NCBI GenBank assembly: GCA_018268415.1
Contig: JAFDWO010000018.1
Location: 1-64,000 of the forward strand
Length of the DNA stretch: 64,000 bases
Source: Actinomycetota bacterium
Lineage (GTDB): Bacteria; Actinomycetota; Thermoleophilia; Solirubrobacterales; 70-9
Direction of reading: 5' to 3'
Numbering within the stretch: position 1 is the first letter of the stretch; every line of letters begins with the position of its first letter. A program made the position numbers and the translations under genes. Below are positions 45,496-62,470 of the stretch, piece after piece. The notes beneath the pieces are model-generated. The model searched no databases. It saw only the letters and a program-made list of their open reading frames with translations, and was not told where the DNA came from.

Positions 45496-45527
45496 TTTAT
45501 CTGCCGGAATGGCGGAACGCGTGTCGC

Positions 45528-45917
45528 CTACCGGTCGTGGAAGCGATACGGAGGCACGGCCCCCTCCGCGGAGACGACGGTGCGGACCGACCGCGGGACG
45601 TCCGCGTCGGGCGGCAACCCCTCGATCAGGCCGAACACCAGTGGCCCGTTGGCGTCGAGCTGGACCTGGCCGAGCATGTAGGGAGCCGCGAGCCCGGCCA
45701 GCGGGACGTGGGCCGTGGTGTGGGTGATGAGGACGCCGGAGCCCGCGAACACCTCGGTTCGGAGCGCGGCGCTGCCGCAGCGATTGCAGACGGCACGGGC
45801 AGGCCAGGAGGGGGTGTTGCAGACGGAGCAGCGGGACCCGACCAGGGCCTGAGCCTCGCGGTCCACCCGCGGTCGCGATCCGGTCAGCTCGGCGTCCAGC
45901 GCCGGGGTCAGGTCCAT
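45528..45917 (-). CDS. DUF35 Zn-ribbon OB-fold protein
   Basis: 129 residues. A rubredoxin-like zinc knuckle CSVCNTPSWPARAVCNRCG at about 30-48 is followed by an OB-fold (LITHTTAHVPLAGLAAPYMLGQVQL). DUF35 proteins partner thiolase-like enzymes, as in the steroid retro-aldolase Ltp2-ChsH2. Overlaps the thiolase gene by 10 nt, so it probably forms a complex with that protein. Confidence 0.85.
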   Translation of the reverse strand: MDLTPALDAELTGSRPRVDREAQALVGSRCSVCNTPSWPARAVCNRCGSAALRTEVFAGSGVLITHTTAHVPLAGLAAPYMLGQVQLDANGPLVFGLIEGLPPDADVPRSVRTVVSAEGAVPPYRFHDR

Positions 45918-47086: not shown

Positions 47087-48588
47087 GTCGTCGCCTCTCC
47101 CTCGAGGCGCTTGCGGACGCCGACTCGGTCGACCTTGCCGTAAGGGGTGCGGGGGATGTCCTCCCAGATCTCGACCCGCTTCGGCGCCCGCATGCCGAGG
47201 CGCTCGGAGGCGTAGCGGACGATCTCCGCCGGGGTCATCTGCTGGTGATCGTGCTGGCGGATTACCGCGGTCACGGCGTCGCCCCAGCGCGGGTCGGGCA
47301 TCCCGAGGACCACCACCTCACGCACCCCAGGCAACTTCTCGAGCACGTCCTCGACCTCGCGCGGCGCGATGTTGTAGCCGCCCGAGTTCATGATTTCGTC
47401 GCTGCGTCCCTGCAGGTAGACGAAGCCGCGCTCGTCGACTTTGGCGAGGTCCCGCGTGCGCAGCCAGTCGTCGACCAGGACCTCGTTGGTGGCGGCCGGA
47501 TTCTTGTGGTACCCACTCATCACCTGGGGGGCGCGGACGTAGACTTCGCCGACCTCCCCCACCTCGACCACCGCACCGTCGGGGCCGCGGACCTCCGCCG
47601 CCACCGTGCGCCAGGGACGACCGGCGGAGCGGCGCGCCTCCTGGTCGAGGTGGTCCAGCTTGCCAAGGCAGGTGATCGTCATCGGCGCCTCCGACTGGCC
47701 GTAGTCCTGAAACAGGGTCGGCCCGAAGCGCTCCAGGGACCGCTCCAGGGTGGGCACGCTGACGCTGGAGGCGCCGTAGACGATGGTCTCGAACCCCCAC
47801 TCCCCCGCCTCGGCCTCGAGCAGCGGCTCCAGCATCGCCGGCACCAGCTTCAGGGTGCGGAGATCCTCGCGGCGGGAGAGCTGCCAGATCCGGTCCGGAT
47901 CAAACCTCGACATCAGGTTGACCCCGGCCCCGCTCAGCAGGTAGGGGAGGACGAAGTACCCGGAGGCGTGGGAGATCGCCTGGGTGAGGACGATCTGCTC
48001 GCCCGGCACCACCGGCCCCAACTCCAGCAGGAGGTTGTAGGCGACCTCGCGGATTGCCCGGTGCGACAGCACGATACCCTTCGGCCGGCCGGTGGTCCCG
48101 GAGGTATAGGTGATCCAGGCGGGGTCCTCGGCGTCGATCGACCGCTCGCGCGGGAGTTCACCGCCGCGGATCGCCAGCTCGTCGAGGGACATCTCCTGGT
48201 CACCGTCCTCGATCGCGACCACCCGCACGCCGGTCTGCTCCGCCAAGGCCAGCGCCGCCTCGGCGTTGTCCGGTGAGTAGAAGAGGAGCTCGACCGCGGC
48301 GTCCTCGATCACGAAGCGGAAGTCCTCGAGGTGAAGGCGCGAGTTCAGGGCGACGCGCACGCGACCGCCGAGGGCGAGCGCGACGTCGATCTGGACCATC
48401 TCGGCGCGGTTGCCCGACAGGATCCCCACCGGGGCGTGAGGCCCGACCCCTTCCAGGTCGAGGCCATTTGCGATGGACTCACCCCGGCGCAGCAGCTCGG
48501 CAAGCGTCAGTTGCCTGATTCCGTCATCGACGGCAGGCGAATCTGGATACCAGGCCGCCGCCCTCCGAAGGAGGTATGCAAGGTTCAA
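47083..48588 (-). CDS. AMP-forming acyl-CoA ligase, pair member 1
   Basis: 501 residues. The AMP-binding motif is ITYTSGTTGRPKG at about 165-177. YGQSEAPMT, RTRDLAKVDERGFVYLQGR (core Asp and hinge) and the C-terminal catalytic Lys in RTPYGKVDR follow. It activates a carboxylic acid to its CoA ester. TTG 48588 follows GGGAG by 5 nt and gives a normal N-terminus; longer frames upstream run through the promoter. First gene of the minus operon ligase-thiolase-OB fold-IclR. Confidence 0.87.
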   Translation of the reverse strand: MNLAYLLRRAAAWYPDSPAVDDGIRQLTLAELLRRGESIANGLDLEGVGPHAPVGILSGNRAEMVQIDVALALGGRVRVALNSRLHLEDFRFVIEDAAVELLFYSPDNAEAALALAEQTGVRVVAIEDGDQEMSLDELAIRGGELPRERSIDAEDPAWITYTSGTTGRPKGIVLSHRAIREVAYNLLLELGPVVPGEQIVLTQAISHASGYFVLPYLLSGAGVNLMSRFDPDRIWQLSRREDLRTLKLVPAMLEPLLEAEAGEWGFETIVYGASSVSVPTLERSLERFGPTLFQDYGQSEAPMTITCLGKLDHLDQEARRSAGRPWRTVAAEVRGPDGAVVEVGEVGEVYVRAPQVMSGYHKNPAATNEVLVDDWLRTRDLAKVDERGFVYLQGRSDEIMNSGGYNIAPREVEDVLEKLPGVREVVVLGMPDPRWGDAVTAVIRQHDHQQMTPAEIVRYASERLGMRAPKRVEIWEDIPRTPYGKVDRVGVRKRLEGEATT

Positions 48589-48715
48589 GTTGTCTCCCGG
48601 CTTCGATTGCGAATCGTCCGGTGGACGAGTCAGATGGGTACGGGTTAATGGGGATTGGAGCGTAGCATGAGTTCCATTTATTGAGTCAAACGTTTCGTTA
48701 GTCGGAACAACCAAT

Positions 48716-48732
48716 AATCCGATTAGCGAAAT
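48716..48732. promoter_or_regulatory. Shared TCCG motif facing the minus-strand ligase operon
   Basis: AATCCGATTAGCGAAAT on the plus strand, in an AT-rich divergent promoter region (48660-48755). Lies 3 bp from the oppositely oriented copy. Confidence 0.55.
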
Positions 48733-48735
48733 ATT

Positions 48736-48753
48736 GATATCGTTGAACGGAAT
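48736..48753. promoter_or_regulatory. Shared TCCG motif facing the plus-strand ligase operon
   Basis: Minus strand ATTCCGTTCAACGATATC. It has the same orientation relative to its gene as the other sites have to theirs. Confidence 0.6.
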
Positions 48754-48825
48754 GGCGACGTTGCGCGAGCGGCGTCGGCGGTGGCGCGTACGCACCCGGG
48801 AAACGAACTGAGGAGGAGTAAGCCG

Positions 48826-50454
48826 TTGCTATTGGAAGCGTCCCCCCTTGAGAAGCGGACCATCCCGAATCTCTGGGCCGCCGCGGTCGAGAAGGACCCC
48901 GACGCCTCGTTCCTGCTCTTCGACGGTGACGAGTGGAGCTATGGCGAGGCCGACCGCTTCGTAGCCGCCACCGCTCGGCGGCTCTACGACGAGGGCCTCG
49001 CCCCCGGGTCGCACGTCGCGGTCTTCCTCGACAACGGGCCGGAGTACGTGTGGACGCTGCTCGCCCTTGCCCGGATCGGCGCGGTCGCGGTGCCGATCCA
49101 CGGCGAGGCGCAGGGACCTCTGCTGCGCCATTTCCTGCTCTCCTCCGACTGCCGCTCGGCGATCATCGCCGACGGATATCTCGGCCGCGTCAGCGAGGCA
49201 ATCGGCGCGGAGGTGATCGAGCGCGTCTGGGTGGTCACGACGGAGGCCGGCGCCGACCAGGCAGGCCTCGCAATCTCCGCCCACCAGACGGCGCTCACCT
49301 TCACCGACTCGATCGCCGTGGACGCCGGCGCCGAGCCGATCCCCGAGCCGCGGTTCTCTGACACCGCGCTCCTTATGTTCACCTCGGGGACCTCGGGCCC
49401 GTCGAAGGCGGCGATCGTCGCCCAGGCGCACCCGATGACCGCCGCCCTGGCGATGGCCGACGCCGCCGGGATCAGCGCCGCGGACCGGATGCACACTTGC
49501 CTGCCGCTCTCCCATGCCAACGCGATGTGGTTCACCGTCTATACGGCGATCACGGTCGGCGCCAGCGTCGCGCTGAGCCGACGGTTCTCGGTCAGCGGGT
49601 TCTGGCGGGACGTGGTCGCGACCGGGTCGACCCAGACCAGCCTGCTGGGCAGCATGCTGCAGTTGCTCTGGAAGCGCGAGCCCGACGCGGATGAGCAGAA
49701 CGCCCGGCTGCAGAGCATGTTCGTCGTGCCGTTCCCGACCAACGCGCAGAGCTACGAGGATCGCTTCGGCGCCAAGCTGATGACGATCTACGGGATGAGC
49801 GAGTGGACCCCGGTCTCGCTCTCGCGGCCCGGCGAGGGGTACGACAAGCCCACCGGGATGGCCGGGCCGCTGCGCTGGGACCTGAACGACATCGCCATCC
49901 TCGACGACGACGACCTGCCGCTGCCGACCGGACGGATCGGTGAGATCGCGGTGCGCCGCAAGCAGCCCTTCACCTCCTTCCAGGGCTACTACGGTCGCGA
50001 CGCCGAGACTTTGGGCGATTGGCGAAACCTTTGGTTCCACACCGGCGACCACGGCTACATCGGCGAGGACGACTACCTCTATTTCGTCGGCCGCAAGTCC
50101 GATTCGCTGCGCCGCCGCGGTGAGAACGTCTCCGCCGGGGAGCTTGAGGACATCCTGCTCGAGTGCCCGCTGATCGCCGAGGTGGCCGCGGTGGCGGTCC
50201 CCTCCGATCTCGGCGAGATCAGCGAGGACGACATCGCCGTGTTCGTCATCCCGACCGCTACCGAGGCCGACCCGGCGGCGATTCGCCAGTTTGCCGTCGA
50301 TCACCTGCCCCGCTACATGAGACCCCGGTATCTGAAGTTCGTCGACGACTTCCCCCGCACCGGCAACGCCAAGGTGCGCAAGCAGCCGCTCCGCGAGGAA
50401 GCCAAGGCGGCGCTGGCCGACTTCCACGACTTCGACCGCGAGCAGGTCCGATGA
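48826..50454 (+). CDS. AMP-forming acyl-CoA ligase, pair member 2
   Basis: 542 residues. LMFTSGTSGPSKA (P-loop), YGMSEWTPVS, WFHTGDHGYIGEDDYLYFVGR and RTGNAKVRK with the catalytic Lys. TTG 48826 is chosen because GAGGAGGAG lies 8 nt upstream; an in-frame GTG at 48781 lacks this. It diverges from the other ligase and overlaps the Baeyer-Villiger monooxygenase by 4 nt. Long-chain/crotonobetaine-type similarity; substrate unknown. Confidence 0.87.
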   Translation: MLLEASPLEKRTIPNLWAAAVEKDPDASFLLFDGDEWSYGEADRFVAATARRLYDEGLAPGSHVAVFLDNGPEYVWTLLALARIGAVAVPIHGEAQGPLLRHFLLSSDCRSAIIADGYLGRVSEAIGAEVIERVWVVTTEAGADQAGLAISAHQTALTFTDSIAVDAGAEPIPEPRFSDTALLMFTSGTSGPSKAAIVAQAHPMTAALAMADAAGISAADRMHTCLPLSHANAMWFTVYTAITVGASVALSRRFSVSGFWRDVVATGSTQTSLLGSMLQLLWKREPDADEQNARLQSMFVVPFPTNAQSYEDRFGAKLMTIYGMSEWTPVSLSRPGEGYDKPTGMAGPLRWDLNDIAILDDDDLPLPTGRIGEIAVRRKQPFTSFQGYYGRDAETLGDWRNLWFHTGDHGYIGEDDYLYFVGRKSDSLRRRGENVSAGELEDILLECPLIAEVAAVAVPSDLGEISEDDIAVFVIPTATEADPAAIRQFAVDHLPRYMRPRYLKFVDDFPRTGNAKVRKQPLREEAKAALADFHDFDREQVR

Positions 50455-52385
50455 CCGGCACGGCGCCGGCCACGGCAAGCGGCCCGACCGCGGCCGCGGT
50501 CGGGCCGGATACCCTCGCCGCGGCGGTAGAGGCGGCCAACCTCCCGACCCTGTTGATGGTGGTCATCCACCTCACCGGCGACCGCCGCTGGCTCGACGAC
50601 CGCTACCGGCCACGGCGCCCGCGCGGCCTCGGGGACGACGACTCCGGTGGCCTCGACGCCGAAGCCCAGGCCGAGGTGAAAGCCGCCGCCCGGCTCGCCC
50701 TCGCCGAGTACCTGGAGCGGGGCTGCCCGGCGCCGGCGATGCCGTCCCCTGACGCCCTCCGCGAGCTGCTGACCTTCTCGGTCGGCGAGGAGGTGCCGGA
50801 GGACTACGGGCGGATGATGCACGAGGATCTCGCCGCCCAGCTGGCGCCCCGCACACCGGCGCCGGCGGCCCGCCCTGACGCCCACCTGAGCGCCCTGATC
50901 ATCGGTGCCGGACCCTCCGGGATCGCCGCGGCGATCGCGCTGCGCTCGGTCGGCGTCCCCTTCTTGATGGTCGAGCAGAACACCGAGGTCGGCGGCACCT
51001 GGCTCGACAACGAGTATCCGGGCGCCGCGGTCGACACGCCGAGCGACATCTACTCGTTCTCCTTCGCACCGTTCCGGTGGCGGCGCTACTTCGCCGCCGG
51101 CGACGAGCTGCGCGACTACCTCGACGGGATCGCCGACCAGGAGGACCTGCGCCCGGCGATCCGCTTCGGAGTCGAAGCCCGGACCGCCGTCTGGGACGAG
51201 GACGCCCGGACCTGGAGCGTCACCCTGCGCCGGCGCGACGGCTCCACCGAGACCGTCACCGCGAACCTCCTGATCAGCGCGGTCGGCGCGCTCAGCCGGC
51301 CGACCATCCCGGAGATTCCTGGCCTCGCCAGCTTCATCGGCCCGTCGTTCCACACCGCGCGCTGGCCCGCCGGGATCGATCTCGCCGGCAAGCGCGTCGG
51401 CGTGATCGGCACTGGGGCCAGCGCGATGCAGCTCGTCCCCTCGATCGTCGACGAGGTCGGCCATCTGACCGTCTTCCAGCGCTCGGCCCAGTGGGCGGCG
51501 CCGTTCGAGAAGTGCAAGGTCGAGATCCCGGAGGCGCTTCGAGAGCTGACGCTGGCGGCACCCATCTACCGCGCCTGGTATCGCCAACGGCAGGCCTGGA
51601 TCTTCAACGACCGGGTCTACGACTCGCTGATCAAGGACCCCGAGTGGCCGCACCAGGACCGCGCCGTGAACGCGGTCAACGACCGCCACCGGCAGTTCTT
51701 CACCGACTACATCCTGGCCGAGATCGGCGACCGCCCTGACCTGGTCGAGAAGGTGCTGCCGACCTATCCGCCGTTCCTCAAGCGGATGCTGCTCGACAAC
51801 GGCTGGTTCAAGGCGATGGCGCGAGACGACGTGACCCTGGAGACCGGACGCATCCGCAAAGTCGCGAAGGACCGGGTGATCATGGAGTCCGGCGAGGAGC
51901 ACATCCTCGACGTCCTCGTCCTCTCCACCGGATTCGACGCCACCCACTTCCTCGCCTCGCTCGACGTCCGCGGACGCGGCGGGACCTCGCTCAGTGAGGC
52001 TTGGGACGAGGATGATCCCAAGGCCTACCTGGGGATGACCGTGCCAGGATTCCCCAACTTCTTCACCATGAACGGGCCGAACCTGCTGACCGGCCACGGC
52101 GGCAGCCTTATGTACATCGCCGAGTGCCAGCTGCGCTATCTGCTCGACATCGTCGGCAAGATGCTCGACCGCCGGCTCGACTCAATCGAGTGCCGGCACG
52201 AGATCAACGAGGCCTACAACGCCGCCGTCGACGCCCAGCACGACCGGATGATCTGGTCACACAAGGGCGCCGACACCTACTACCGCAACCACCGCGGCCG
52301 GGTGGTGGTGAACAGCCCCTGGCGGGTCATCGACTTCTGGTCGATGACCCGCGAGGCCGACCTCGACGACTACATCGTCCGCTAG
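50451..52385 (+). CDS. Baeyer-Villiger monooxygenase with long N-terminal extension
   Basis: 644-residue class-B flavin monooxygenase. An N-terminal helical extension of about 145 residues precedes the FAD site GAGPSG (152-157). The BVMO fingerprint FIGPSFHTARWP is at 295-306, and the NADPH site GTGASA follows. Total length and extension match 4-hydroxyacetophenone monooxygenase-type enzymes rather than the roughly 540-residue cyclohexanone type. It inserts oxygen next to a ketone to give an ester or lactone (NADPH, FAD). Ends convergent with the Zn-alcohol dehydrogenase, overlapping by 4 nt. Confidence 0.92.
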   Translation: MTGTAPATASGPTAAAVGPDTLAAAVEAANLPTLLMVVIHLTGDRRWLDDRYRPRRPRGLGDDDSGGLDAEAQAEVKAAARLALAEYLERGCPAPAMPSPDALRELLTFSVGEEVPEDYGRMMHEDLAAQLAPRTPAPAARPDAHLSALIIGAGPSGIAAAIALRSVGVPFLMVEQNTEVGGTWLDNEYPGAAVDTPSDIYSFSFAPFRWRRYFAAGDELRDYLDGIADQEDLRPAIRFGVEARTAVWDEDARTWSVTLRRRDGSTETVTANLLISAVGALSRPTIPEIPGLASFIGPSFHTARWPAGIDLAGKRVGVIGTGASAMQLVPSIVDEVGHLTVFQRSAQWAAPFEKCKVEIPEALRELTLAAPIYRAWYRQRQAWIFNDRVYDSLIKDPEWPHQDRAVNAVNDRHRQFFTDYILAEIGDRPDLVEKVLPTYPPFLKRMLLDNGWFKAMARDDVTLETGRIRKVAKDRVIMESGEEHILDVLVLSTGFDATHFLASLDVRGRGGTSLSEAWDEDDPKAYLGMTVPGFPNFFTMNGPNLLTGHGGSLMYIAECQLRYLLDIVGKMLDRRLDSIECRHEINEAYNAAVDAQHDRMIWSHKGADTYYRNHRGRVVVNSPWRVIDFWSMTREADLDDYIVR

Positions 52386-53464
52386 TCGAAGATGATGACC
52401 TGACGGGAGATGTCGGCGCCCCCGTCGAGCGCGTCCATCGCCTCGGGGGCGTCGGCGAGGTCGATCTTCGAGGTGATCAGGCCCTCCAGGTCGAGCTGTC
52501 CGGTGCGCCAGAGATCGAGGTACATCTGGTAGTCGATCAGCGGGTTCACCGAGCCGCCGACGGACCCGACCAACCGCTTGGCTTCCATCGTCGCCTCGTA
52601 GAGGCTGAGCCCGGTCTCGGTGGTCTCCGAGCCGATCCCGGAGAGGACCACCATGCCGCCGAGGCGGGTCGCGTCCCAGGCAGCGCGCAGGGTGTCGGTG
52701 CGGCCGACGTTCTCGAACGCGTAGTCGAAGCCGATGCCGCCGGTCGCCTCCTCCTTCGCCGCGGCGAGCCCGTCGGGCGTCACCGTGTGGGTGGCCCCGA
52801 ACTGGCGCATCCGTTCGAACTTCGACTCGATCGGATCGACGACGACGATCGTCGAGGCCCCGGCCAGACGCGCGCCCTGGACCGCGGCCGCGCCGACGCC
52901 GCCGACGCCGACGATGACCACGGAGGAGCCGGGCTCGACCTCGGCGGTGCGGATCACGGCACCGACCCCGGTCATCACCGCGCAGTTGATCAGAGAGGCG
53001 ATCTCGAACGGCACGTCGTCGCCGACGAAGGGCACCACGCTGATCTCCGGCAGCACCACCTCCTCGGCCCAGGCGCCTAGCCCGACCATGCCGAAGGCCG
53101 GCTCCCCGGCGAGCAGGAAGTTGTGCTCGGCGGCCCCTTTCTGGTCCTCGTGTCCGCAGAGATAACGCTCCCCGCGGAGGCAGAAATAGCACTTACCGCA
53201 GCCGCGCAGGTTGGCGAGGATGACCCGGTCACCGGCGGCGACGGTGTCGACGTCGGCGCCGACCTCGAGCACTTCGCCGGCCCCCTCGTGGCCGAGGATC
53301 ACGGGCAGCCTGGTGGGCCAGATGCCCTTCGCCGCCGACAGGTCGGTGCGACAGATCCCGGAGGCCCGCATCCGCACCCGGACCTCGTCCGGCCCGACGG
53401 CGACGGGCTGGACATCGTCCCGCAGTTCGGATCTGCCCAGCTCTTCGACAACGATCGCCTTCAT
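52382..53464 (-). CDS. Zn-dependent MDR alcohol dehydrogenase
   Basis: 360 residues. The catalytic-zinc ligand Cys lies in ASGICRTDL (C38) with GHEGAGEV (His-Glu). The structural zinc lobe is CGKCYFCLRGERYLC. The NAD site is GVGGVGAAAVQ near 190. Oxidises a primary or secondary alcohol. Co-located with the aldehyde dehydrogenase 15 nt away, the pair is equivalent to ChnD/ChnE, which convert a hydroxyacid to a dicarboxylic acid. Confidence 0.9.
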   Translation of the reverse strand: MKAIVVEELGRSELRDDVQPVAVGPDEVRVRMRASGICRTDLSAAKGIWPTRLPVILGHEGAGEVLEVGADVDTVAAGDRVILANLRGCGKCYFCLRGERYLCGHEDQKGAAEHNFLLAGEPAFGMVGLGAWAEEVVLPEISVVPFVGDDVPFEIASLINCAVMTGVGAVIRTAEVEPGSSVVIVGVGGVGAAAVQGARLAGASTIVVVDPIESKFERMRQFGATHTVTPDGLAAAKEEATGGIGFDYAFENVGRTDTLRAAWDATRLGGMVVLSGIGSETTETGLSLYEATMEAKRLVGSVGGSVNPLIDYQMYLDLWRTGQLDLEGLITSKIDLADAPEAMDALDGGADISRQVIIFD

Positions 53465-53479
53465 TCGTACGTCCTTCCC

Positions 53480-54964
53480 TCAGACCGCGATGTAGACGGC
53501 CTTGTTCTCCGTGTAGGCCTGGTACCAGTCGAGTCCGAACTCGCGGCCGAGCCCCGACTGCTTGTAGCCGCCGAACGGCATCGTCGGATCGAGGCTGCCC
53601 CACTTGTTCACCCAGACCGTGCCCGCCTCGAGCCGCCGGGCCAGTCGATGCGCGCGGCCCAGATCGCGAGTCCAAAGCGCCGCGGCCAACCCGTAGTCGG
53701 TCTCGTTCGCGAGCCGCACCGCCTCCTCCTCGTCGTCGAACGGGATCACCGAGACGACCGGGCCGAAGATCTCCTCGCGGGCGATCCGCATCGAGTTTTC
53801 GACCCCGGTGAAGACGGTCGGCTCGACGAAGAAGCCGCGCCCCTCGATCACCGCGCCGCCGGCGCTTGCCGTCGCGCCGGCCTCCTTGCCGGTGGCGAGG
53901 TAGGCGGCGACCCGGTCGCGCTGACCGGCCGAGATGAGTGGACCGACGTCGGTCCCCGCCGCCGTCGGGTCGCCCACGGTCAGTGAGCCGACCGCGGCAC
54001 TGAGCCGTGCGGCGAACTCATCGTGGATCGCCCGCTGGACGAAGAGACGCGAGCCGGCGGTGCAGATCTGCCCGCTGAGACTCGTGAACGCGGCGACCGC
54101 CACCGGCAGCGCCGCCTCGAGATTGGCGTCGGCGAAGACGATGTTCGGTGTCTTGCCGCCGAGCTCCAGCGACACATGCTTCAGCGTCGACCCGGAGACG
54201 GCAAGGATCAGCTTGCCGACCTCGGTCGAGCCGGTAAAGGAGACCTTGTCGACGCCGGGATGCGCGGCGAGGGCGCTGCCCGCGCCCTCGCCCATACCCG
54301 GGAGCACGTTGACCACGCCGGGTGGGAACCCGGCCTCGAGCACCAGCCGGCCGAGCCGCAGGGCGGTCAGCGGCGTCAGCTCGGCCGGCTTCAGGATCAC
54401 CGTGTTGCCGGCTGCCAGGGCCGGCGAGAGCTTCCACACGGCGTTCGTGATCGGCGCGTTCCAGGGCACGATCGAGGCGACCACGCCGACCGGGTCGCGC
54501 AGCGAGTAGTTGAACGCGTCGCCGCCGCTCTGCGGGGTGACGCCGTGGATCGTGTGGGCGGCGCCGGCGAAGTGGAGCACGGTCTCGATCGCCCCGGCGA
54601 TCATCGCCTCGGCGGTGGGGAGGGTCATCCCCGAGTCCAGGGTCTCGAGCCGGGCCAGGTCGTCGGCGTCGCGGGCGATCAGCTCGGCGAAACGCCGCAG
54701 AAGGACGGCGCGGTCGGCCGGCGAGGTATCCCGCCAGCTCGCCGCCTCGAACGCCTTGCGAGCGGTGCCGACCGCGCGCTCGACATCGGCGTCGCCCGCC
54801 TCGGCCACCTCGGCAAGGGTCTCCTCGGTCGCCGGGTTCGTGGTCGGGAAGGTCGCACCCGACTCGGCGTCGACCCACTCGTCGCCGATCAGGAGGACGG
54901 CCGGGCCGCCGAGCAGGTCGTCCACCCGCTCCGCGGACGGCGCCGTGTCGTTCTGGCCACTCAT
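53480..54964 (-). CDS. NAD(P)-dependent aldehyde dehydrogenase
   Basis: 494 residues. Asn169 (VPWNAP), catalytic Glu267 (LELGGKTP) and nucleophilic Cys301 (SGQICTAGSR) are all present, with the GSTEVGK coenzyme motif at 245-251. Oxidises an aldehyde to an acid. Overlaps the SDR gene by 4 nt and precedes the alcohol dehydrogenase. Confidence 0.92.
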   Translation of the reverse strand: MSGQNDTAPSAERVDDLLGGPAVLLIGDEWVDAESGATFPTTNPATEETLAEVAEAGDADVERAVGTARKAFEAASWRDTSPADRAVLLRRFAELIARDADDLARLETLDSGMTLPTAEAMIAGAIETVLHFAGAAHTIHGVTPQSGGDAFNYSLRDPVGVVASIVPWNAPITNAVWKLSPALAAGNTVILKPAELTPLTALRLGRLVLEAGFPPGVVNVLPGMGEGAGSALAAHPGVDKVSFTGSTEVGKLILAVSGSTLKHVSLELGGKTPNIVFADANLEAALPVAVAAFTSLSGQICTAGSRLFVQRAIHDEFAARLSAAVGSLTVGDPTAAGTDVGPLISAGQRDRVAAYLATGKEAGATASAGGAVIEGRGFFVEPTVFTGVENSMRIAREEIFGPVVSVIPFDDEEEAVRLANETDYGLAAALWTRDLGRAHRLARRLEAGTVWVNKWGSLDPTMPFGGYKQSGLGREFGLDWYQAYTENKAVYIAV

Positions 54965-55767
54965 CGGAGCATGTTCCCCATGTCCATCAGCAGGTTGTGC
55001 CCGGTCATGAACCGGCCCTCGTCGGAGGCGAGGAAGAGGACGCCCTCGCTGATGTCGCGCGCCTCGGCCATCTCGATCGGCAGCGCGTTCGTGAACAGCG
55101 GCGCGAAGTGCGGGCCTTTCGCCATCAGCTCCTCGAACCCGCCGAGCCCTTCAAGCAGCCCCGTGTTCACCCCGTTGGGGCTGATGCAGTTGACGCGGAT
55201 GTTGTGCATGCCGAGCTCGTTGGCCATCGTCTTGGCGAGCCCGATGACGCCGTGCTTGGCCGCACCGTAGGCCGCCAGGTAGGGATTGCCGCGGGCCCCG
55301 GCGACGCTCGCGGTGATGATGATCGAGCCCGAACCGCGCTCCAGCAGGTGCGGGACGGTCGCTTTCAAGGTGTTCCAGGTCCCGGTCAAGATCGTGTCGA
55401 TCTGGTCATTCCAGATCTCGTCGGTGGTTTCGTCCCACGGCTTCATCGTGCAGATGCCCGCGTTGGCGCAGACGATGTCGATACCGCCGAGCTCGGCGGC
55501 GCCTCGGTTGGCGGCGGCGGTCACGCCCTCCCGGTCACGCACGTCGGCGACAGCTAGGTACACCCGGCGGTCGAGTTCGCGGACCCGGGCGCCGGTCTCA
55601 TCGAGGTCGTCTTTCGTCGCCAGGCCGTAGTCGATGCTGGTGATGTCAGCGCAGATATCAGTGGCGATGATGTCGGCGCCCTCTTCGGCCAGGCGCAGGG
55701 CGTGGGCACGTCCCTGTCCGCGGCCGGCGCCGGTGATGTACGCGACCTTGCCGTCAAGTTTTCCCAT
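54961..55767 (-). CDS. Mycofactocin-type SDR dehydrogenase
   Basis: 268 residues. TGAGRGQGRAHA (12-23) followed by EEGADIIATDIC and a longer loop before beta-3 is the signature of mycofactocin-coupled SDRs with tightly bound NAD. The active site is Ser154, Tyr167, Lys171. It would oxidise an alcohol, for example the P450 product, to a ketone. No mycofactocin biosynthesis genes are in this window. First gene of SDR-ALDH-ADH; the shared motif lies 29 bp upstream. Confidence 0.88.
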   Translation of the reverse strand: MGKLDGKVAYITGAGRGQGRAHALRLAEEGADIIATDICADITSIDYGLATKDDLDETGARVRELDRRVYLAVADVRDREGVTAAANRGAAELGGIDIVCANAGICTMKPWDETTDEIWNDQIDTILTGTWNTLKATVPHLLERGSGSIIITASVAGARGNPYLAAYGAAKHGVIGLAKTMANELGMHNIRVNCISPNGVNTGLLEGLGGFEELMAKGPHFAPLFTNALPIEMAEARDISEGVLFLASDEGRFMTGHNLLMDMGNMLR

Positions 55768-55891: not shown

Positions 55892-56779
55892 TCAAGGCGC
55901 CGGGACCTCGACCTGACAGGTGAGCAGCTCGGACTCGCGCGCCCCCATGCGTCTGGCCGCGATTGCGTCCGGCGCGCAGCACAGAAGCAGGGTCGAACCG
56001 TCTGGACCGCCGAGCGCGCAGGCGAAGCACCGCAGCCCCGGGGGCGGCTCGATCCGATCCAGGACCTCGCCTCCGGCCCGCACCAGAAGACATGCGCCGC
56101 CGGCCGCATCGGCGCACCAGATCCGGTCCTCCCGATCCACCGCGAGCCCGTCCGGAGCTACCCGCAAAGCCTTCAGGGTGCCCCGGAGGTCGTCCAGCGG
56201 CGGCGGTGGCGCCAGCTGCGCCCAGACCGCGGCGCCGCCGAGGCTGCCGTCGGCCGCGATCGGGAAGGCGGTGAGGCGCGAGCCGAAGGTCTCGGCCACG
56301 ACCAGGGTCTTCCCGTCGCCGAGGACGACGGCGCCGTTGGGGACCGTCAGATCGGCGGCGGCCACCTCGACCCGCCCGTCTGGGGTGACGCCGACCAGCG
56401 GGCTCGTCAGCGGTCTCTCCCCCGTCTCCATATCGAAGCCGAGGCCACCGACCCAGGCGCGGCCGTCGGCGGCGACGATCAGGTCGTTGGCCGGCCCCCG
56501 CATCAGCGGTCCGAGCTCGGCATAGACCTCGGGGCTGCCGTCACCGGACACGCGGACGATCTGCCGCCGACTCATCAGGACGACCAGAAGGCTCCCGTCC
56601 GGTAGCCTGCCGATCCCGCCCGGGTGATCGGGGAGGAGGTGCTCCTCGACCACGATCCCGGCCGGGTCGAGGCCGAGGACACGGTCGGCGAACATGTCCG
56701 CCACCCACCACAGGCCGGCGTACCAACGTGGGCTCTCGAAGAACCGCCCGTCGGCATGGAGGCGGTTCAGGGCGGTCAC
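55892..56779 (-). CDS. SMP-30/gluconolactonase-type hydrolase
   Basis: 295 residues, a six-bladed beta-propeller of the SMP-30 class: ESPRWYAGLWWVADMFA at the start, PANDLIVAADGRAWVG and APDGLAVDREDRIWCADAA. The Asn/Asp metal-ligand positions are retained. Family members hydrolyse lactones with Ca or Zn. It would open the lactone formed by the BVMO. Unusually Cys-rich C-terminus (CADAAGGACLL, CFACAL, LLLCCA). Last gene of the long minus operon from the B12 mutase. Confidence 0.83.
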   Translation of the reverse strand: MTALNRLHADGRFFESPRWYAGLWWVADMFADRVLGLDPAGIVVEEHLLPDHPGGIGRLPDGSLLVVLMSRRQIVRVSGDGSPEVYAELGPLMRGPANDLIVAADGRAWVGGLGFDMETGERPLTSPLVGVTPDGRVEVAAADLTVPNGAVVLGDGKTLVVAETFGSRLTAFPIAADGSLGGAAVWAQLAPPPPLDDLRGTLKALRVAPDGLAVDREDRIWCADAAGGACLLVRAGGEVLDRIEPPPGLRCFACALGGPDGSTLLLCCAPDAIAARRMGARESELLTCQVEVPAP

Positions 56780-56786
56780 CCGCCGT

Positions 56787-57938
56787 TCACCCCACCGCAG
56801 CCGCGGCGGTGCCGAGGATCAGGGTCGCGGCGTGGTTGAACATGCCGCCGATCCCGTGGGCCAGGCTGATCTCGACCCCATCGACCTGGGCGGTGGCCTC
56901 GCCGCGCAGCTGGCGCACCGACTCCTGGATCGCGAACATCCCGTACATCCCGGTATGGGTGTAGGAGAGGCCGCCGCCGGAGGTGTTCAGCGGCAACTGC
57001 CCGCCGGGGGAGGTGTTGCCTGCCTCGATGAACGGCCCCGCCTCGCCGCGCGGCAGGAAGCCGAGGTCCTCGAGGCCGAAGATCGGCAGGTGGGCGAAGG
57101 CGTCGTAGATCATCAGATGGTGGACCTCGGCATGGGCGATCCGCGCCTCGCGGAAGGCCTGCGCCGCGGATACACGAAAGGCGCGCGAGGTGGTGAAGTC
57201 GTCCATCGTCGTGATGATCGGGGTCTCGCTCGACTCGCCGCTGCCGAGGACGTACACCGGCTTCCGCCGGAGGTCCTTGGCCCGCTCCTCCTCCATGATC
57301 ACCAGGGCCCCGCCGCCGTCGGTCACCAGGCAGCACTCGAGCCGGTGGATCGGATAATCGACGTAGGGCGAGGCGAGGACGTCCGCGACCGTGAGTGGAT
57401 CGCGCTTGAAGGCCCGCGGCGTCAGCGCCGCCCAGCGCCGCTGCGCGACCGCGACACTCGCCAGCTGCTCCGGAGTGAGGCCGAAGTCCTTCATGTAGCG
57501 GAGCACCCCGAGCGGCAGCATCGACGGCGGGCCTTTGGTCCCGAAGGGCCGCTCGAACTGGCCGTGCATCGACTCCGGCCCGGGGTCGGGGTAGGTCATC
57601 CCGACCCGCGACCGGCCGGACTGGCCGTGGGTGACGAGGACCACCTCGCAGTGGCCTGCCTGGATCGCCGCCGCGGCGTGCCGGACGTGGGCAAGGAAGG
57701 AGCACCCACCGACCCGGGTGCCGTCGACGTACCGCGGCCTGACCCCGAGGTAGTGGGCGACGTCGATCGGCGGATGGCCGGCGGTGGCGAGGCCGTCGAT
57801 CGCGGCCGGCTCGATGCCGCAGTCGGCGATCGCGTTGCGGGCGGCGTCGACCTGCAGTTGCAGCGCGGACATCCCTGGGACGCGGCCGATCTCGGTCGAC
57901 TCGGCGGCCCCGGCGATCACGATCCGACCGCGGCTCAT
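56787..57938 (-). CDS. Thiolase-like enzyme (DitF/Ltp2-like), pair 2
   Basis: 383 residues. The Cys position is kept in VGGCSFLAHVRHA, but the C-terminal motif is SGGGLSYTHTGMYGM in place of GHPxGATG, as in DitF-type and other thiolase-like proteins paired with DUF35. Could be a thiolase or a retro-aldolase cleaving a 3-hydroxyacyl-CoA with a branched or tertiary alcohol. Overlaps the OB-fold gene by 4 nt. Confidence 0.83.
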   Translation of the reverse strand: MSRGRIVIAGAAESTEIGRVPGMSALQLQVDAARNAIADCGIEPAAIDGLATAGHPPIDVAHYLGVRPRYVDGTRVGGCSFLAHVRHAAAAIQAGHCEVVLVTHGQSGRSRVGMTYPDPGPESMHGQFERPFGTKGPPSMLPLGVLRYMKDFGLTPEQLASVAVAQRRWAALTPRAFKRDPLTVADVLASPYVDYPIHRLECCLVTDGGGALVIMEEERAKDLRRKPVYVLGSGESSETPIITTMDDFTTSRAFRVSAAQAFREARIAHAEVHHLMIYDAFAHLPIFGLEDLGFLPRGEAGPFIEAGNTSPGGQLPLNTSGGGLSYTHTGMYGMFAIQESVRQLRGEATAQVDGVEISLAHGIGGMFNHAATLILGTAAAAVG

Positions 57939-58342
57939 GCCGGTCCCGCCGGGCGGAAGAAGGGCAGCACCACCGAGTTGCGCTCCTCGAACACGACCTC
58001 CAGCGGCAGGTCGAGCGGCAGTAGCTCCGGATCGGGCTCGACGCCGACGATGTTCGACATCATCCGCGGGCCCTCCTCGAGCTCGACGATCGCGATCACG
58101 TAGGGGACATCGTTCTCGAAGCCAGGCGCCGGGTCATGGCAGATCAGGTAGGTGTGCAGAGTCGCCCGGCCGCTCACCTCGGTCCACTCGACCCGATCGC
58201 CGAGGCAGGTCGGGCAGTGGTCCCGTGGGTAGAAGAAATGCGCGGCGCAATCGATGCACCGTTGGATGCTGAGCACGCCTCGCCCTGCCGCTTCCCAGAA
58301 CGGCAGGGTGTCCGGGGTGGGCTCTGGCACCGCGCCGCTCAC
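57935..58342 (-). CDS. DUF35 Zn-ribbon OB-fold protein, pair 2
   Basis: 135 residues. Zinc ribbon CIDCAAHFFYPRDHCPTC near 28-45, then an OB-fold (TLHTYLICHDPAPGFENDVPYVIAIVELEEG). The GTG start at 58342 overlaps the hydratase stop (GTGA). Expected partner of the thiolase-like protein downstream. Confidence 0.85.
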   Translation of the reverse strand: MSGAVPEPTPDTLPFWEAAGRGVLSIQRCIDCAAHFFYPRDHCPTCLGDRVEWTEVSGRATLHTYLICHDPAPGFENDVPYVIAIVELEEGPRMMSNIVGVEPDPELLPLDLPLEVVFEERNSVVLPFFRPAGPA

Positions 58343-59121
58343 GGGCGCTGGTCGTCGCGGTGGCGGACCAAGGCCCGCATGCGGTCCGCGGCCTCCGGAT
58401 CGCCGAGCAGCAGCTCGATCATCTCGTCCAGGTGGTCGGGCCGATCGTAGGAACGGAAGATCTTCTTGTACGCACGGATCGCAGCCGGGCTGGTGGCCGC
58501 GAACTCCGCCGCCACCTCCCAGGCCCGCGCGAGCAGATCGTCGGCCGGGACGCACTCGAGGACGAGGCCGAGGCGCCACGCCTCCCGGGCGTCGATCAGC
58601 GATCCAGAGAAGAGCAGGTACTTCAGCGCCGGGAGCGGCATCTGGGCGAAAAGCCGCGCGATCGCCAGGCCGTCGATCAGGCCGACCTTCGCCTCCGGGA
58701 TCCCGACCCGGGTCCCCTCGGCGGCGATGACGACGTCGCAGGCGGTGGCAAGCCCGAAGCCGCCGCCGACACAGGTGCCCCTGATCGCGGCGATCGTCGG
58801 CTTGCGGCAGCCGCGGATGGTCGCGAAGGGAAGGTCGTCCTGGTACCTGAAGACCCGCTCGTGCGGCGGCCCGTCGTCGAGGTATTCGAGCATCTCGTTC
58901 AGATCGCCGCCGACGCCGAAGACGTCGCCCGCGGCGCTGAACACGATCACCGCGACCTCCGGATCGGCCTCGGCGATCCGCGTTGCGAGGCGGATCTCAC
59001 GGTACATCTCGGTCGTGTAGGCGTTGATGTGGCCGGGGCGGTCGAGGACGATCGAGGCGATCCCGTCCGCGTTGTCGGACCTCAGGTTCTTGAACTCCTG
59101 CCCGCCTTGTCCTCTCGGCAC
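58339..59121 (-). CDS. Enoyl-CoA hydratase/isomerase (crotonase family)
   Basis: 260 residues. Oxyanion hole segments FSAAGDVFGVGGDLNEM and RGTCVGGGFGLATACDVVIAAEG. The acidic residue in IPEAKVGLIDG aligns with a crotonase catalytic Glu; the second usual Glu is less clear, so isomerase or hydrolase activity is possible. Next to the thiolase/OB pair, it probably hydrates an enoyl-CoA for aldol or thiolytic cleavage. Confidence 0.85.
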   Translation of the reverse strand: MPRGQGGQEFKNLRSDNADGIASIVLDRPGHINAYTTEMYREIRLATRIAEADPEVAVIVFSAAGDVFGVGGDLNEMLEYLDDGPPHERVFRYQDDLPFATIRGCRKPTIAAIRGTCVGGGFGLATACDVVIAAEGTRVGIPEAKVGLIDGLAIARLFAQMPLPALKYLLFSGSLIDAREAWRLGLVLECVPADDLLARAWEVAAEFAATSPAAIRAYKKIFRSYDRPDHLDEMIELLLGDPEAADRMRALVRHRDDQRP

Positions 59122-59138: not shown

Positions 59139-59537
59139 CTACGCCTCGACGCGCTTGCAGTCAAGGAACGCCTGAACGATCTCCCCGATCGGCGTCCCCG
59201 GGCCGAAATGGACTTTCACTCCGCTGACCAGCATCCGCTCGATCTCGGCGGGCTCGTCGATGCCACCCGCGAGCACCGGGATCTGCACTTCCTCCTGGGC
59301 CAGCAGCTCGACCGTATTGGTGGCGAAATGGCCGAGGCCGCCGCTGAGGCAGCTGACCCCGATCACGTCGGCGTCCTCCGCCACCGCCGCCGCGACCACG
59401 CTTGCGGTGGGGATGCGTTTGCCGAGGTAGATCACCTCGCAGCCCGCGTCGACGAGGGATTTGGCGATCAGGTTGATCGCCACGTCGTGCCCGTCGAGGC
59501 CGAGCTTCGCGAGGACGACGCGTGGCTTGTCGCTCAA
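59139..59537 (-). CDS. B12-binding small subunit of acyl-CoA mutase
   Basis: 132 residues. KLGLDGHDVAINLIAKSLVD carries the cobalamin lower-ligand motif, with D15 and H17 kept, but the final Gly of D-x-H-x-x-G is Ala20. VSCLSGG and AGGIDEPAEI complete the Rossmann fold. Overlaps the large subunit by 4 nt. A stand-alone small subunit is the arrangement of isobutyryl- and 2-hydroxyisobutyryl-CoA mutases. Confidence 0.88.
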   Translation of the reverse strand: MSDKPRVVLAKLGLDGHDVAINLIAKSLVDAGCEVIYLGKRIPTASVVAAAVAEDADVIGVSCLSGGLGHFATNTVELLAQEEVQIPVLAGGIDEPAEIERMLVSGVKVHFGPGTPIGEIVQAFLDCKRVEA

Positions 59538-61105
59538 CGTGCGAACCCCGCGCGGGTCGCTGCCACGATCTCCTGTCCGGTCGCCCCGGTCTGCAGCGCC
59601 GCGATCGTCGGCGGTAACAGATTCTCGGTCGTCGCGGCCGACGCCTGCACGTCGGCCAGGGCCGGGGCGACGTCGCCGCGCGCGGCCTTGTGACGCTCGA
59701 TCCGCTCCCGCATCTCCTGCTCGACCCGACCGAAGTCGACCTCTCCTTGGCTGCTCCCCTGAAAGAGATCCCGCTGCGCCGGTGCGACGTTCGTGGAGTG
59801 CCCGACCATCAGGCGCTCGCCACTCTCGAGCTGCGCCTCCCGGGCGCCCCTCTGTTCGTCGATCCGCTGCTTCACATAGCCGCTTTCCAACGCCCGCAGG
59901 GACCCGCCCTCCTCGTCCAGGCGCTCGAGCTCTGCGTGGACGGTGGTCGCCACGTAGTCCTCGACGTCGTGGAGCTTGGCGCTCCCGACCAAAGGATCGA
60001 TCGTGGTGGCCGTGCCGTGCTCGTTGCCGACCACCTGCATGGTGCGGACGGCGAGCGCCGCCGCGTCGACCGAGGGGATGCGCAGCGCCTCGTCATAGCC
60101 GGTGGCGCAGAGGTAGTCGACCCCGCCCATCACCGAGGCGAGGACGCTGAGGGTCACGCGCGGCAGGTTCACCAACGGCTCGGCGGCCGACTCGAGACCG
60201 TGGGCGTAGCCCATCAGGCACATCACCGGCTGATCCTCGACCTTCACGCCGTAGTGCTCGGCCAGCAGTTCGCTCCACAGGGTCCGCGCCGCCCGGAAGA
60301 CCGCCGCCTCGACGAAGAAGTCGCTGCGCTCGTTCAGGAAGAACATCAGTTTGCCGCAGACGTCATCCACGGTATAACCGCGACCGACCAGCTCGTCGAT
60401 GTACACGATCGCGTTGCCGAAGGCGAAGGCCATCGCGAGCACCGGGCCAGTGCCGGCGACGTCGTAGTGGTTCGAGCAGACGGTCATGGCGACGCCGGGG
60501 ATGTCCTCGTCGATCGCGTGGGCGACGCAGTCGCAGGCGATCCGCACCGCCTCGGCGGGATGGTGGATCTCGGTGCCGCGGGCGGTGAACTCCTTTAGCG
60601 GGTCGTTCTGCATCACCAACTTCACCTCGGGGGCACCGAGTTTGCGCAGAGTCGAGGCGACCATGCCCATGCCGATGTGCCCGACCGAGTTGGAGAGCAT
60701 GCCGACGCTGTCCGCCCGGTCGAGCGCGAGCTCCGAGCAGATCGCCTCGAAGTCGGCCAGGGTCGTGCAGCTCACCCCGGCCCGGCCAACCTGGGCGTAG
60801 GCGAGTTCGGCGTCGGGGTCGAAGCCGAGCTGCGACGGCAGGTCGGTGGCGATCAGGAACGACTCGGCACCGACCTCCTGCAGGATGCGGAGGCGCTCGG
60901 CGGTCATCGCCGGGCTGCCTAGCCCGGAGTAGACCATGTAGCGAGGGCGGAAAGGGCCGCCCGCGGCCGCCCGGGCGCGACGCCACGCTGCGATCGCCGG
61001 CGAGCTCACCCCGGCGGCGGCGTCGTAGTCGCTCAGGATCGGCGCCCGGCTGTCGTTCGCGCTCGAAGTGGCGACCGTGCCGGTCTGCGCGCTACCGGCC
61101 ATCAC
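59534..61105 (-). CDS. Acyl-CoA mutase large subunit (methylmalonyl-CoA mutase family)
   Basis: 523 residues, the TIM-barrel substrate subunit. Tyr59 (MVYSGLG), Arg176 (QNDPLKEFTARGT) and His213 (SNHYDVAG) fall at the Tyr89, Arg207 and His244 positions of methylmalonyl-CoA mutase. Isobutyryl-CoA mutase has Gln at the Arg position, so a substrate with a free carboxylate is favoured, for example a methyl-branched dicarboxylyl-CoA. Chain identity with known mutases looks low over the N-terminus. Rearranges a carbon skeleton using adenosylcobalamin. No chaperone GTPase gene is adjacent. Confidence 0.85.
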   Translation of the reverse strand: MMAGSAQTGTVATSSANDSRAPILSDYDAAAGVSSPAIAAWRRARAAAGGPFRPRYMVYSGLGSPAMTAERLRILQEVGAESFLIATDLPSQLGFDPDAELAYAQVGRAGVSCTTLADFEAICSELALDRADSVGMLSNSVGHIGMGMVASTLRKLGAPEVKLVMQNDPLKEFTARGTEIHHPAEAVRIACDCVAHAIDEDIPGVAMTVCSNHYDVAGTGPVLAMAFAFGNAIVYIDELVGRGYTVDDVCGKLMFFLNERSDFFVEAAVFRAARTLWSELLAEHYGVKVEDQPVMCLMGYAHGLESAAEPLVNLPRVTLSVLASVMGGVDYLCATGYDEALRIPSVDAAALAVRTMQVVGNEHGTATTIDPLVGSAKLHDVEDYVATTVHAELERLDEEGGSLRALESGYVKQRIDEQRGAREAQLESGERLMVGHSTNVAPAQRDLFQGSSQGEVDFGRVEQEMRERIERHKAARGDVAPALADVQASAATTENLLPPTIAALQTGATGQEIVAATRAGFAR

Positions 61106-61222: not shown

Positions 61223-62470
61223 TCAGGCGGGCTTGAAAGTGACGCGGAGGTTGTCGACGCCACGGGTCCAGAGTCCGGTCTCCTGCGGCACGAAACCCTC
61301 CGACAGGCGCAGCTCCTTCATGTTGTCGAGGATCAGGTTGACACCGTTTTCGACCTCCGCTTTGGAGAGCGCGGCGCCGACGCAGAAGTGCCGGCCGTTG
61401 GCGAATCCGAGGTGATCAGCGCCGCCGCTGAATCCGCGCTCAACGTTGTTGTCGGTGCGGAAGATGTCGAACACTTCGGGGGTCGAGAACTTCCGCGGGT
61501 CGCGGTTGCCGGCGCCGAGCAGACAGTGGATGACCGAACCATCGGGGATCGTCACCCCATCCAGCTCGAGGTCGGCAATCGTCGTCCGCGAGGCGATGTT
61601 GACCGGCGCGCTGTACCGCAGGGTCTCGACGAATGCGTTGGCGACCAGGCTGCGGTCGGCGCGGACGGCCGCCAACTGGTCCGGGTGGCGGAGCAGGTTC
61701 AGCATCACCATGCCGAGCGCGCGGTCGGTGGTCTCGCCGCCGGCGACGACCATCAGGGTGATGAACGAACGCACCTCGTCATCGGTGAGCGTCTCGCCCT
61801 CGATTTCGTTCGAGCACATCTGCGAGACGAGATCGTTGCCCGGATTGGCGCGCCGCGCGGCGATCAGCGGCGCGACGAATTCGGCCAGTTCGTCGCGCGC
61901 CCGGATCCCGCGGGCGGCCGCCTCGGGGTCGTTGCCGACGTTCGCGACGAACGCCATCAGATCCTTGAACCAACGGATGAAGTCACTGCGCGACTCGCGC
62001 GGCAGGTCCAGCATCTCGAGGATCACCGAGATCGGGATCGCCTGCAGGTAGCTCTCGGCGATGTCCATCTCGGCGAACTCCTGCTCGCCCGCGAGGACCG
62101 GGGCCACGGCCTGTTCATAGGCGGGAGTGAACAGGGCCTCCACCACGCGCTTCACGACCGGCTGGTAATCGGCGATCGCCGTCCGGTTCAGCAGCGGCAT
62201 GATCAGCCCGCGCTGCTGCTGGTGCTCGCGCCCGTCCAGCTCCAGCAGGGTCCGCCCGTACACGGTGCCGATCGAGGCGGCGTAGTTGTCAGAGCTGATC
62301 GCCTTGCTCTTGAGGATGTTGAGGATGTCGGCGTGCCGCGTGACCAGCCAACCCCCGGACCCCTCGTGAAAGACGACGGGCTCCTCTTCGCGCAGGTGCC
62401 GATACGCGATCTGGGGTTCGCGATCGTGCTCCTCCGAAAGGATGTCTGGGATCGCGCTCGCTACAGCCAT
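61223..62470 (-). CDS. Cytochrome P450
   Basis: 415 residues. I-helix VVAGGETTDR, ExxR in ETLR, heme loop FANGRHFCVG with C363. The N-terminal HLREEEPVVFHEGSGGWLVTRHADI is that of soluble bacterial P450s. AGGAGAAGAG precedes ATG 62470. First gene of the long minus-strand catabolic run (117 nt from the mutase). It would hydroxylate the unactivated substrate entering the pathway. Redox partners are not in the window. Confidence 0.9.
   Translation of the reverse strand: MAVASAIPDILSEEHDREPQIAYRHLREEEPVVFHEGSGGWLVTRHADILNILKSKAISSDNYAASIGTVYGRTLLELDGREHQQQRGLIMPLLNRTAIADYQPVVKRVVEALFTPAYEQAVAPVLAGEQEFAEMDIAESYLQAIPISVILEMLDLPRESRSDFIRWFKDLMAFVANVGNDPEAAARGIRARDELAEFVAPLIAARRANPGNDLVSQMCSNEIEGETLTDDEVRSFITLMVVAGGETTDRALGMVMLNLLRHPDQLAAVRADRSLVANAFVETLRYSAPVNIASRTTIADLELDGVTIPDGSVIHCLLGAGNRDPRKFSTPEVFDIFRTDNNVERGFSGGADHLGFANGRHFCVGAALSKAEVENGVNLILDNMKELRLSEGFVPQETGLWTRGVDNLRVTFKPA

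Follow-up and report, generated by a model that had tools for sequence, protein, structure and literature searches.

A deep actinobacterial clade of two-subunit B12-dependent acyl-CoA mutases, its six-gene cassette and a possible 4-oxoacyl-CoA substrate

Which acyl-CoA does a B12-dependent mutase rearrange when it groups with none of the classes it is compared against? This question is raised by a two-gene mutase at positions 59139-61105 (minus strand) of contig JAFDWO010000018.1 from an Actinomycetota bacterium, within the 64,000-nucleotide stretch that was analyzed as a whole and is called the window here. To our knowledge, the substrates established for B12 acyl-CoA mutases fall into only a few classes, namely methylmalonyl, ethylmalonyl, isobutyryl/pivalyl, and 2-hydroxyisobutyryl. 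The two genes are as follows.

59534..61105, minus strand: mutase large subunit (mutL; TIM barrel, PF01642), 523 aa, GTG start; recognized by open reading frame (ORF), Pfam, PDB match, and model
59139..59537, minus strand: mutase small subunit (mutS; B12-binding, DGH...SxL...GG), 132 aa, TTG start; recognized by ORF, Pfam, and PDB match

The two ORFs share 4 bases of overlap. Pfam assigned mutL to MM_CoA_mutase (PF01642; E 7.6e-85, 285.8 bits against a cut-off of 22.1) and mutS to the B12-binding domain (E 4e-21), values so low that the family match stands far above chance. The nearest PDB sequence to mutL was 4r3u_A, the large subunit of 2-hydroxyisobutyryl-CoA mutase (HCM; E 7.6e-54), and mutS matched 2yxb (2.2e-21) and 4r3u_C (1.8e-15). 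The features that define the adenosylcobalamin-dependent acyl-CoA mutase superfamily were present, with the catalytic TIM-barrel domain in mutL and the B12 motifs DGHD..., SCL, and GG in mutS, the first of these ending in Ala instead of Gly. An AlphaFold2 model built from 14 sequences (pLDDT 81.8, pTM 0.87) had 4r3u_B as its top Foldseek match (E 5.9e-26), and the first row from VIA was human methylmalonyl-CoA mutase (MCM) 2xiq_A (Z 41.5, root-mean-square deviation 2.8, 481 residues), which tied with three other MCM chains. Matches of the model outside the B12 mutases, such as IspG and dihydropteroate synthase (Z about 15), were taken as ordinary TIM barrels. The ORFs, Pfam, and PDB matches confirm the initial annotation of this locus as a two-subunit B12 acyl-CoA mutase, including the layout it had remarked on, with a separate small subunit as in HCM. 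Judged from sequence, the gene pair is an adenosylcobalamin-dependent two-subunit acyl-CoA carbon-skeleton mutase of its own actinobacterial clade.

To define this clade, a pattern-based scan of GTDB contigs was performed and returned 13 relatives of the window mutase. All but one had 55-68% identity and came from named actinobacteria (12 of 13), and the remaining relative, L037, had 35%. Orthologue hosts were Sciscionella, Actinocrispum, Streptomyces, Amycolatopsis, Spongiactinospora, Pseudonocardia, Actinosynnema, and a metagenome-assembled genome of the Pseudonocardiaceae. In a 50-row tree from which L005 was omitted, the window and the 12 orthologues formed a single clade (100/100) with a stem length of 2.8 changes per column, and with a further locus, L074, the 14 members again formed a single clade (100/100; 56 rows, L004 and L005 omitted, L047 added). 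The sister of the clade was L006, from a genome of the window's genus (100/99), though L006 and the clade each sit on a long branch, and joins of this kind may be false according to the program's own warning. In approximately unbiased (AU) tests on groupings picked after the first tree was known, the data rejected joining the clade to the three MCM references (p 0.0009), to HCM (4r3u_A) plus L003 (p 0.0002), and to four isobutyryl-type rows (p 0.0004). Family models gave a similar picture. The cut-off of TIGR00641 (MCM N-terminal domain; 303.8) was missed by three clade members, the window (253.6), L025 (243.7), and L032 (236.2), and passed by all eight non-clade mutases scanned (376.7-721.1 bits); the window mutase scored 213.3 bits against a cut-off of 876 for PRK09426 (MCM) and 120.1 bits against 1500 for NF045497 (the isobutyryl/IcmF test). 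It is thus well supported, on these alignments, that the clade is distinct from the MCM, HCM, and isobutyryl-type groups tested, and the undefined substrate class given in the initial annotation holds to that extent. The trees held no authentic ethylmalonyl-CoA (including R. sphaeroides Ecm), pivalyl-CoA, RcmA, or ActD/MatB mutases, so separateness covers the groups tested; L002 and its kin are, at a guess, perhaps ethylmalonyl-type.

We then examined the genes that travel with the mutase. Using window proteins as tblastn queries, a ligase, a thiolase, an OB-type thiolase partner, an IclR regulator, mutL, and mutS were found in all 12 named loci and in L074. The cassette spans 5.8-6.1 kb (7.4 kb in L025, with an inserted dehydrogenase) and occurs in four gene orders among the 13 loci. 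The three Spongiactinospora loci are close kin, as are L026, L034, and L074, so our reading of the tree gives about eight independent lineages. The window carries these six genes in two separate blocks, the mutase at 59.1-61.1 kb and the other four at 44.7-48.8 kb.

47083..48795, minus strand: AMP-forming acyl-CoA ligase, core; start uncertain, Pfam match from residue 77; orthologue in 13/13 loci
45908..47086, minus strand: SCP2/BbsB-like thiolase, core; N-A-C-A Cys kept, HDAM motif; orthologue in 13/13 loci
45528..45917, minus strand: BbsA-like zinc-ribbon/OB (DUF35) thiolase partner, core; 129 aa; orthologue in 13/13 loci
44701..45480, minus strand: IclR-family regulator, core; approximate start (the listed ORF, 44701-45993, is overlong at its 5' end); in 13/13 loci

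The six-gene core looks like a common lower module behind differing upper pathways. Redox and hydration genes were found at some loci: with a few queries from the window's genome, one of the 12 named loci gave an acyl-CoA dehydrogenase (L035), one a 3-hydroxyacyl-CoA dehydrogenase (L025), two a hydratase-like protein (L025 and L033), and seven a short-chain dehydrogenase/reductase (SDR)-like protein. L074 had an SDR-like match and no match to the 3-hydroxyacyl-CoA dehydrogenase or hydratase queries.

For the cassette thiolase, 16 sequences were compared: all retain the Cys of the N-A-C-A motif, and all but one have HDAM (HDAC in L037). Its second-best PDB relative was benzoylsuccinyl-CoA thiolase, which has the Cys and HDAF, and acetoacetyl-CoA thiolase 6esq scored about equally. 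Benzoylsuccinyl-CoA thiolase cleaves an alpha-branched beta-keto acyl-CoA. The small partner matched zf-ChsH2 at 31.9 bits (cut-off 23.2) and OB_ChsH2_C at 26.2 bits, slightly below the cut-off of 27.1. The pair thus resembles BbsAB (7pxp) in the thiolase Cys, the HDA[MF] motif, and the small zinc-ribbon/OB partner gene, but no benzylsuccinate genes were noticed. Retro-aldolases of the same fold carry YDHF in the case of Ltp2 and YDCY in that of Sal, where Gly also replaces the nucleophilic Cys (PMC12329534). As Cys and HDAM are kept, the cassette enzyme reads as a true beta-ketoacyl-CoA thiolase.

A shared thiolase and the lack of a dehydrogenase or hydratase found across the loci suggest, on chemical grounds, that the mutase itself makes the beta-keto compound, and among 1,2-shifts of CO-SCoA, a beta-keto product can arise only if the starting acyl-CoA is gamma-keto. 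We therefore propose a 4-oxoacyl-CoA mutase within a ligase-mutase-thiolase module, a reading to which we assign a probability of roughly 45%. The acid would be activated to its acyl-CoA by the cassette ligase, and the mutase would shift the CO-SCoA group to the adjacent carbon to yield a beta-ketoacyl-CoA. For a 4-oxo (gamma-keto) substrate of the levulinyl-CoA type, this would be R-CO-CH2-CH2-CO-SCoA <-> R-CO-CH(CH3)-CO-SCoA, and thiolysis by the BbsAB-like thiolase would then release R-CO-SCoA and propionyl-CoA. By analogy, such a shift would mirror succinyl-CoA <-> methylmalonyl-CoA, with a ketone replacing the free carboxylate. The reaction, its substrate and direction, and likewise the residue roles and upstream pathway considered below, are what we infer from the computed family, clade, residues, and cassette. 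The Pseudomonas lva levulinate pathway also starts with a ligase giving levulinyl-CoA, but proceeds by ketone reduction and isomerization via a phosphorylated intermediate (PMC6692424), where the window proposal has B12 and no reduction. Among the matches listed by the literature searches, none described a B12 mutase with levulinyl-CoA or any other 4-oxoacyl-CoA as its substrate, a result that leaves absence from print unproven. The fuller claim, which joins a new B12 mutase reaction on 4-oxoacyl-CoA to a three-step redox-free route to two acyl-CoAs and a movable actinobacterial cassette, is a shade more tentative than the reaction assignment. If the substrate is a 4-oxo acid, levulinate-type degradation could proceed without reduction or phosphorylation, which would be useful in the conversion of biomass-derived acids, and nature would offer an enzyme to set beside MCM for the discrimination of carboxylate from ketone. 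The deep clade and fixed cassette are in any case a ready test for another mutase substrate class.

The active site was next compared by alignment with that of MCM (1REQ numbering). Tyr59, Arg176, and His213, which the initial annotation had matched to MCM, do align with Tyr89, Arg207, and His244, respectively, and Tyr59, Gln166, Arg176, Asn212, His213, Tyr300, and Glu339 were unchanged across 13 aligned clade sequences (the window and 12 others). The barrel-lining residues and their roles, including those of Tyr89, Arg207, and His244, are taken as in MCM. Lining residues of MCM retained in the clade include Tyr89, Gln197, Arg207, His244, Phe287, and Glu370. Changes fixed in the clade relative to the commonest outside residue include Ser114Leu, Ser164Gly, Thr166Leu, Thr195Val, and Tyr243Asn, and further Ser285Met, His328Met, Gln330Tyr, Gln361Asp, and Ser362Tyr. 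Asn212 immediately precedes His213, and the same site is Tyr in all 36 non-clade mutases compared, a set that omits L005 (Tyr there) and the sister L006 (Asn there). In the proposed reaction, Tyr59 and Arg176 would bind the ketone oxygen and His213 and Gln166 the thioester, and Asn212 in place of Tyr could leave room for R. In a separate mutase group (L007, L008, L009, L037, and L048; 100/96), Phe occupies the His328 site and either Phe or Tyr the Gln330 site.

In mutS, the first motif is D-G-H-D-V-A. The Ala in place of Gly in D-x-H-x-x-G that the initial annotation had singled out is real, though it is not diagnostic: L037 and each of the 12 named orthologues carry Gly at the Ala20 site. As Ala20 is confined to the window among the aligned sequences, we regard it as a quirk of the window copy, and Gly-to-Ala was ruled out as a hallmark of the clade.

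A different assignment is a tertiary 2-hydroxyacyl-CoA mutase resembling HCM, which would interconvert R-C(OH)(CH3)-COSCoA and a 3-hydroxyacyl-CoA, followed by a 3-hydroxyacyl-CoA dehydrogenase and thiolysis. With HcmAB (4r3u), the window enzyme shares the two-subunit layout, PF01642 and the B12-binding domain, the top PDB match of mutL, and a ligase partner, and a 3-hydroxyacyl-CoA dehydrogenase stands beside cassette genes in the window and in L025, with SDR-like proteins in the seven loci noted above. The two nevertheless have only 28.8% identity and lie in separate clades, as the AU test showed, and the sites of HCM's Asp (in T-D-F-D) and Gln, both kept in 4r3u and which we take to be important, are Ala86 and Arg176 in the window. 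There is a precedent in the isobutylene cluster of Mycolicibacterium ELW1, which combines a 3-hydroxybutyryl-CoA dehydrogenase and a thiolase with a ligase, a mutase, and an auxiliary protein (PMC13188929). HCM operons contain a ligase, mutase, G-protein chaperone, and usually a GntR regulator (PMC7176365). Going by these operon contents and the isobutylene cluster, a hydroxyacyl mutase with its own thiolase should have a dehydrogenase nearby, yet the few queries used turned up a 3-hydroxyacyl-CoA dehydrogenase in just one of the 12 named loci; the cassette partners are instead an IclR rather than a GntR regulator, the thiolase, and the OB protein, and the one MeaB query gave no match. On balance, an HCM-like reaction appears unlikely.

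The MCM-like residues point in another direction, and the initial annotation had suggested a branched dicarboxylyl-CoA as substrate. A 2-alkyl dicarboxylyl-CoA mutase (for methylmalonyl-, ethylmalonyl-, or larger alkylmalonyl- or alkylsuccinyl-CoA) would suit Tyr59, Arg176, and His213, invariant in the clade, and a hexylmalonyl-CoA mutase step has been proposed for matlystatin/actinonin biosynthesis (PMC5719088). The window enzyme has the fold of MCM (1REQ, 2XIQ, and 6OXC) and keeps Tyr89, Gln197, Arg207, His244, and Glu370, but it has 25-28% identity to MCM and a separate B12 subunit, Tyr243Asn, Ser114Leu, Thr166Leu, and Gln361Asp are among the changes fixed in the clade, and the clades are not united, in trees that held neither authentic ethylmalonyl-CoA mutase nor ActD/MatB. 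It is also hard to see what a true thiolase would do once a malonyl- or succinyl-type product had formed. With the conserved ligase and apparent true thiolase pointing to a gamma-keto acyl group, we do not favor a dicarboxylyl substrate and consider it rather improbable. The order of steps, which the cassette does not fix, could also be reversed, with the thiolase acting first and the mutase on the released branched acyl-CoA (isobutyryl/pivalyl type). Four rows (L012, L013, L014, and L020), which we label isobutyryl-type from residues only under a presumed Phe/Gln rule, have Phe and Gln at the Tyr89 and Arg207 sites, where the clade has Tyr and Arg, and their union with the clade was rejected; such an order seems highly improbable.

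Several points weigh against the 4-oxoacyl-CoA assignment itself. No dehydrogenase or hydratase was common to the 13 loci, a result from few queries, all from the window's genome, for which misses are possible; the SDR-like genes (seven of 12 named loci and L074) could supply a 3-hydroxyacyl-CoA dehydrogenase, and the window and L025 have a genuine one. MeaB gave no match in the window or the 13 loci, with a single MeaB query (confirmed as PF03308). Gene order leaves the order of reactions unproven, the Arg/Tyr pair would equally suit a carboxylate, and HCM operons as described leave later steps to enzymes elsewhere. Changes were not enriched at lining columns (4/8 vs 19/76 others, Fisher p 0.21; L005 and L006 omitted), and with many barrel-lining residues differing from MCM without enrichment, substrate inference from residues is weak. 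The choice of AU groupings after the first tree counts here as well.

A sister cassette, L038, was found in G008, a genome of the window's genus. It has the same six gene kinds plus a MeaB gene (PF03308), with identities of 67% for the thiolase, 46% for the OB protein, 45% for IclR, 40% for the ligase, 47% for mutS (94 residues), and 38% for mutL (390 residues), and gave no match to the 3-hydroxyacyl-CoA dehydrogenase query, a makeup that also speaks for the 4-oxoacyl-CoA reading of the window cassette. The L038 mutase probably acts on another unassigned acyl-CoA substrate. Genes for an FMN-dependent dehydrogenase, a CN-hydrolase, a CoA-transferase III, and an HpcH/HpaI-type aldolase lie near this cassette.

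The clade is sparsely distributed. Of 390 genomes in Sciscionella's family, 8 had a match at E <= 1e-110, as had 2 of 394 in the family of Streptomyces albidus; at E <= 1e-100 the window's genome stood alone among 399 of its class, and at E <= 1e-72 the count for its phylum was 11 of 396 genomes, of which all but the window's had 33-36% identity. The cassette thiolase, at E <= 1e-110, was present in 2 of 101 related genomes; these are G008 and the window's genome, and each has the cassette. Among 420 matching records, no plasmid-borne relatives of at least 60% identity were found. The window's genome has four further mutase-family matches (27-33% identity), among them one full IcmF (1661.6 bits, cut-off 1500) and L003, with HCM-like residues. 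Four orthologue-bearing genomes each carry additional mutase-family matches, so the clade enzyme is an extra there.

The remaining genes of the window neighborhood are listed below.

61223..62470, minus strand: cytochrome P450, directly upstream of the mutase
58339..59121, minus strand: enoyl-CoA hydratase-like protein; in L025 (50%)
57935..58430, minus strand: ChsH2-type zinc-ribbon/OB protein, approximate start; in L025 (60%)
56787..57938, minus strand: thiolase-fold protein with YDAF motif, tentative Ltp2/Sal-type retro-aldolase; in L025 (72%)
55892..56779, minus strand: SMP-30/gluconolactonase-like protein (lactonase); in L025 (50%)
54961..55767, minus strand: mycofactocin-coupled type SDR
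53480..54964, minus strand: aldehyde dehydrogenase
52382..53464, minus strand: zinc alcohol dehydrogenase
50451..52385, plus strand: Baeyer-Villiger-type flavin monooxygenase; in L025 (54% over part of its length)
48781..50454, plus strand: second acyl-CoA ligase; in L025 (60%)
43754..44626, minus strand: 3-hydroxyacyl-CoA dehydrogenase, accessory; in 1/12 named loci (L025)
39694..43543, minus strand: ABC importer, sugar-type (binding protein, ATPase, permease), downstream of the cassette genes

The Baeyer-Villiger-type monooxygenase, second ligase, hydratase, OB protein, YDAF protein, and SMP-30 lactonase are common to the window and L025, as would suit a pathway in which a cyclic ketone is cleaved to yield a keto acid. 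In the window, a 4-oxo acid could arise from a terpenoid-like cyclic ketone by way of the P450, dehydrogenases, Baeyer-Villiger-type monooxygenase, lactonase, ligase, hydratase, and retro-aldolase. PDB matches of the P450 and the Baeyer-Villiger-type enzyme indicated no single substrate. The ABC importer possibly takes up the pathway substrate. The second thiolase-fold/OB pair (56787-58579, minus strand) is common to the window and Sciscionella marina L025. Because its thiolase-fold protein has YDAF, with Tyr near a lost GHPxGATG motif, it is possibly an aldolase (the N-terminal half lay outside the comparison), and the pair may be an Ltp2/Sal-type retro-aldolase. No tRNA was found in the window, nor any Rfam match at gathering score (no riboswitch or other RNA family).

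Neighbors at the other loci were also clustered, with labels taken from the members scanned. CN-hydrolases (seven loci), amidases (six), aldo-keto reductases (six), and F420 LLM enzymes recurred, which suggests amide or N-heterocycle front ends without a definite compound. TRAP importers for small acids adjoin the cassette in L032 and L035, which also favors the proposed substrate.

Finally, other mutases had neighbors of their own. For the mutase group that includes L037, a ligase adjoins the mutase in L039 and L040, and both a ligase and a thiolase do so in L037. On plasmids of Sulfitobacter dubius (L077) and Marinobacter sp. M3C (L079), mutase clusters include hydratase, CoA-transferase, and TRAP transporter genes, with a GTPase added in L077 and an adenosyltransferase in L079; these two pair alone in the tree (100/100). 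A 37-kb linear plasmid of Streptomyces canus (L078) carries a two-subunit mutase adjoining metH, metF, and ahcY.

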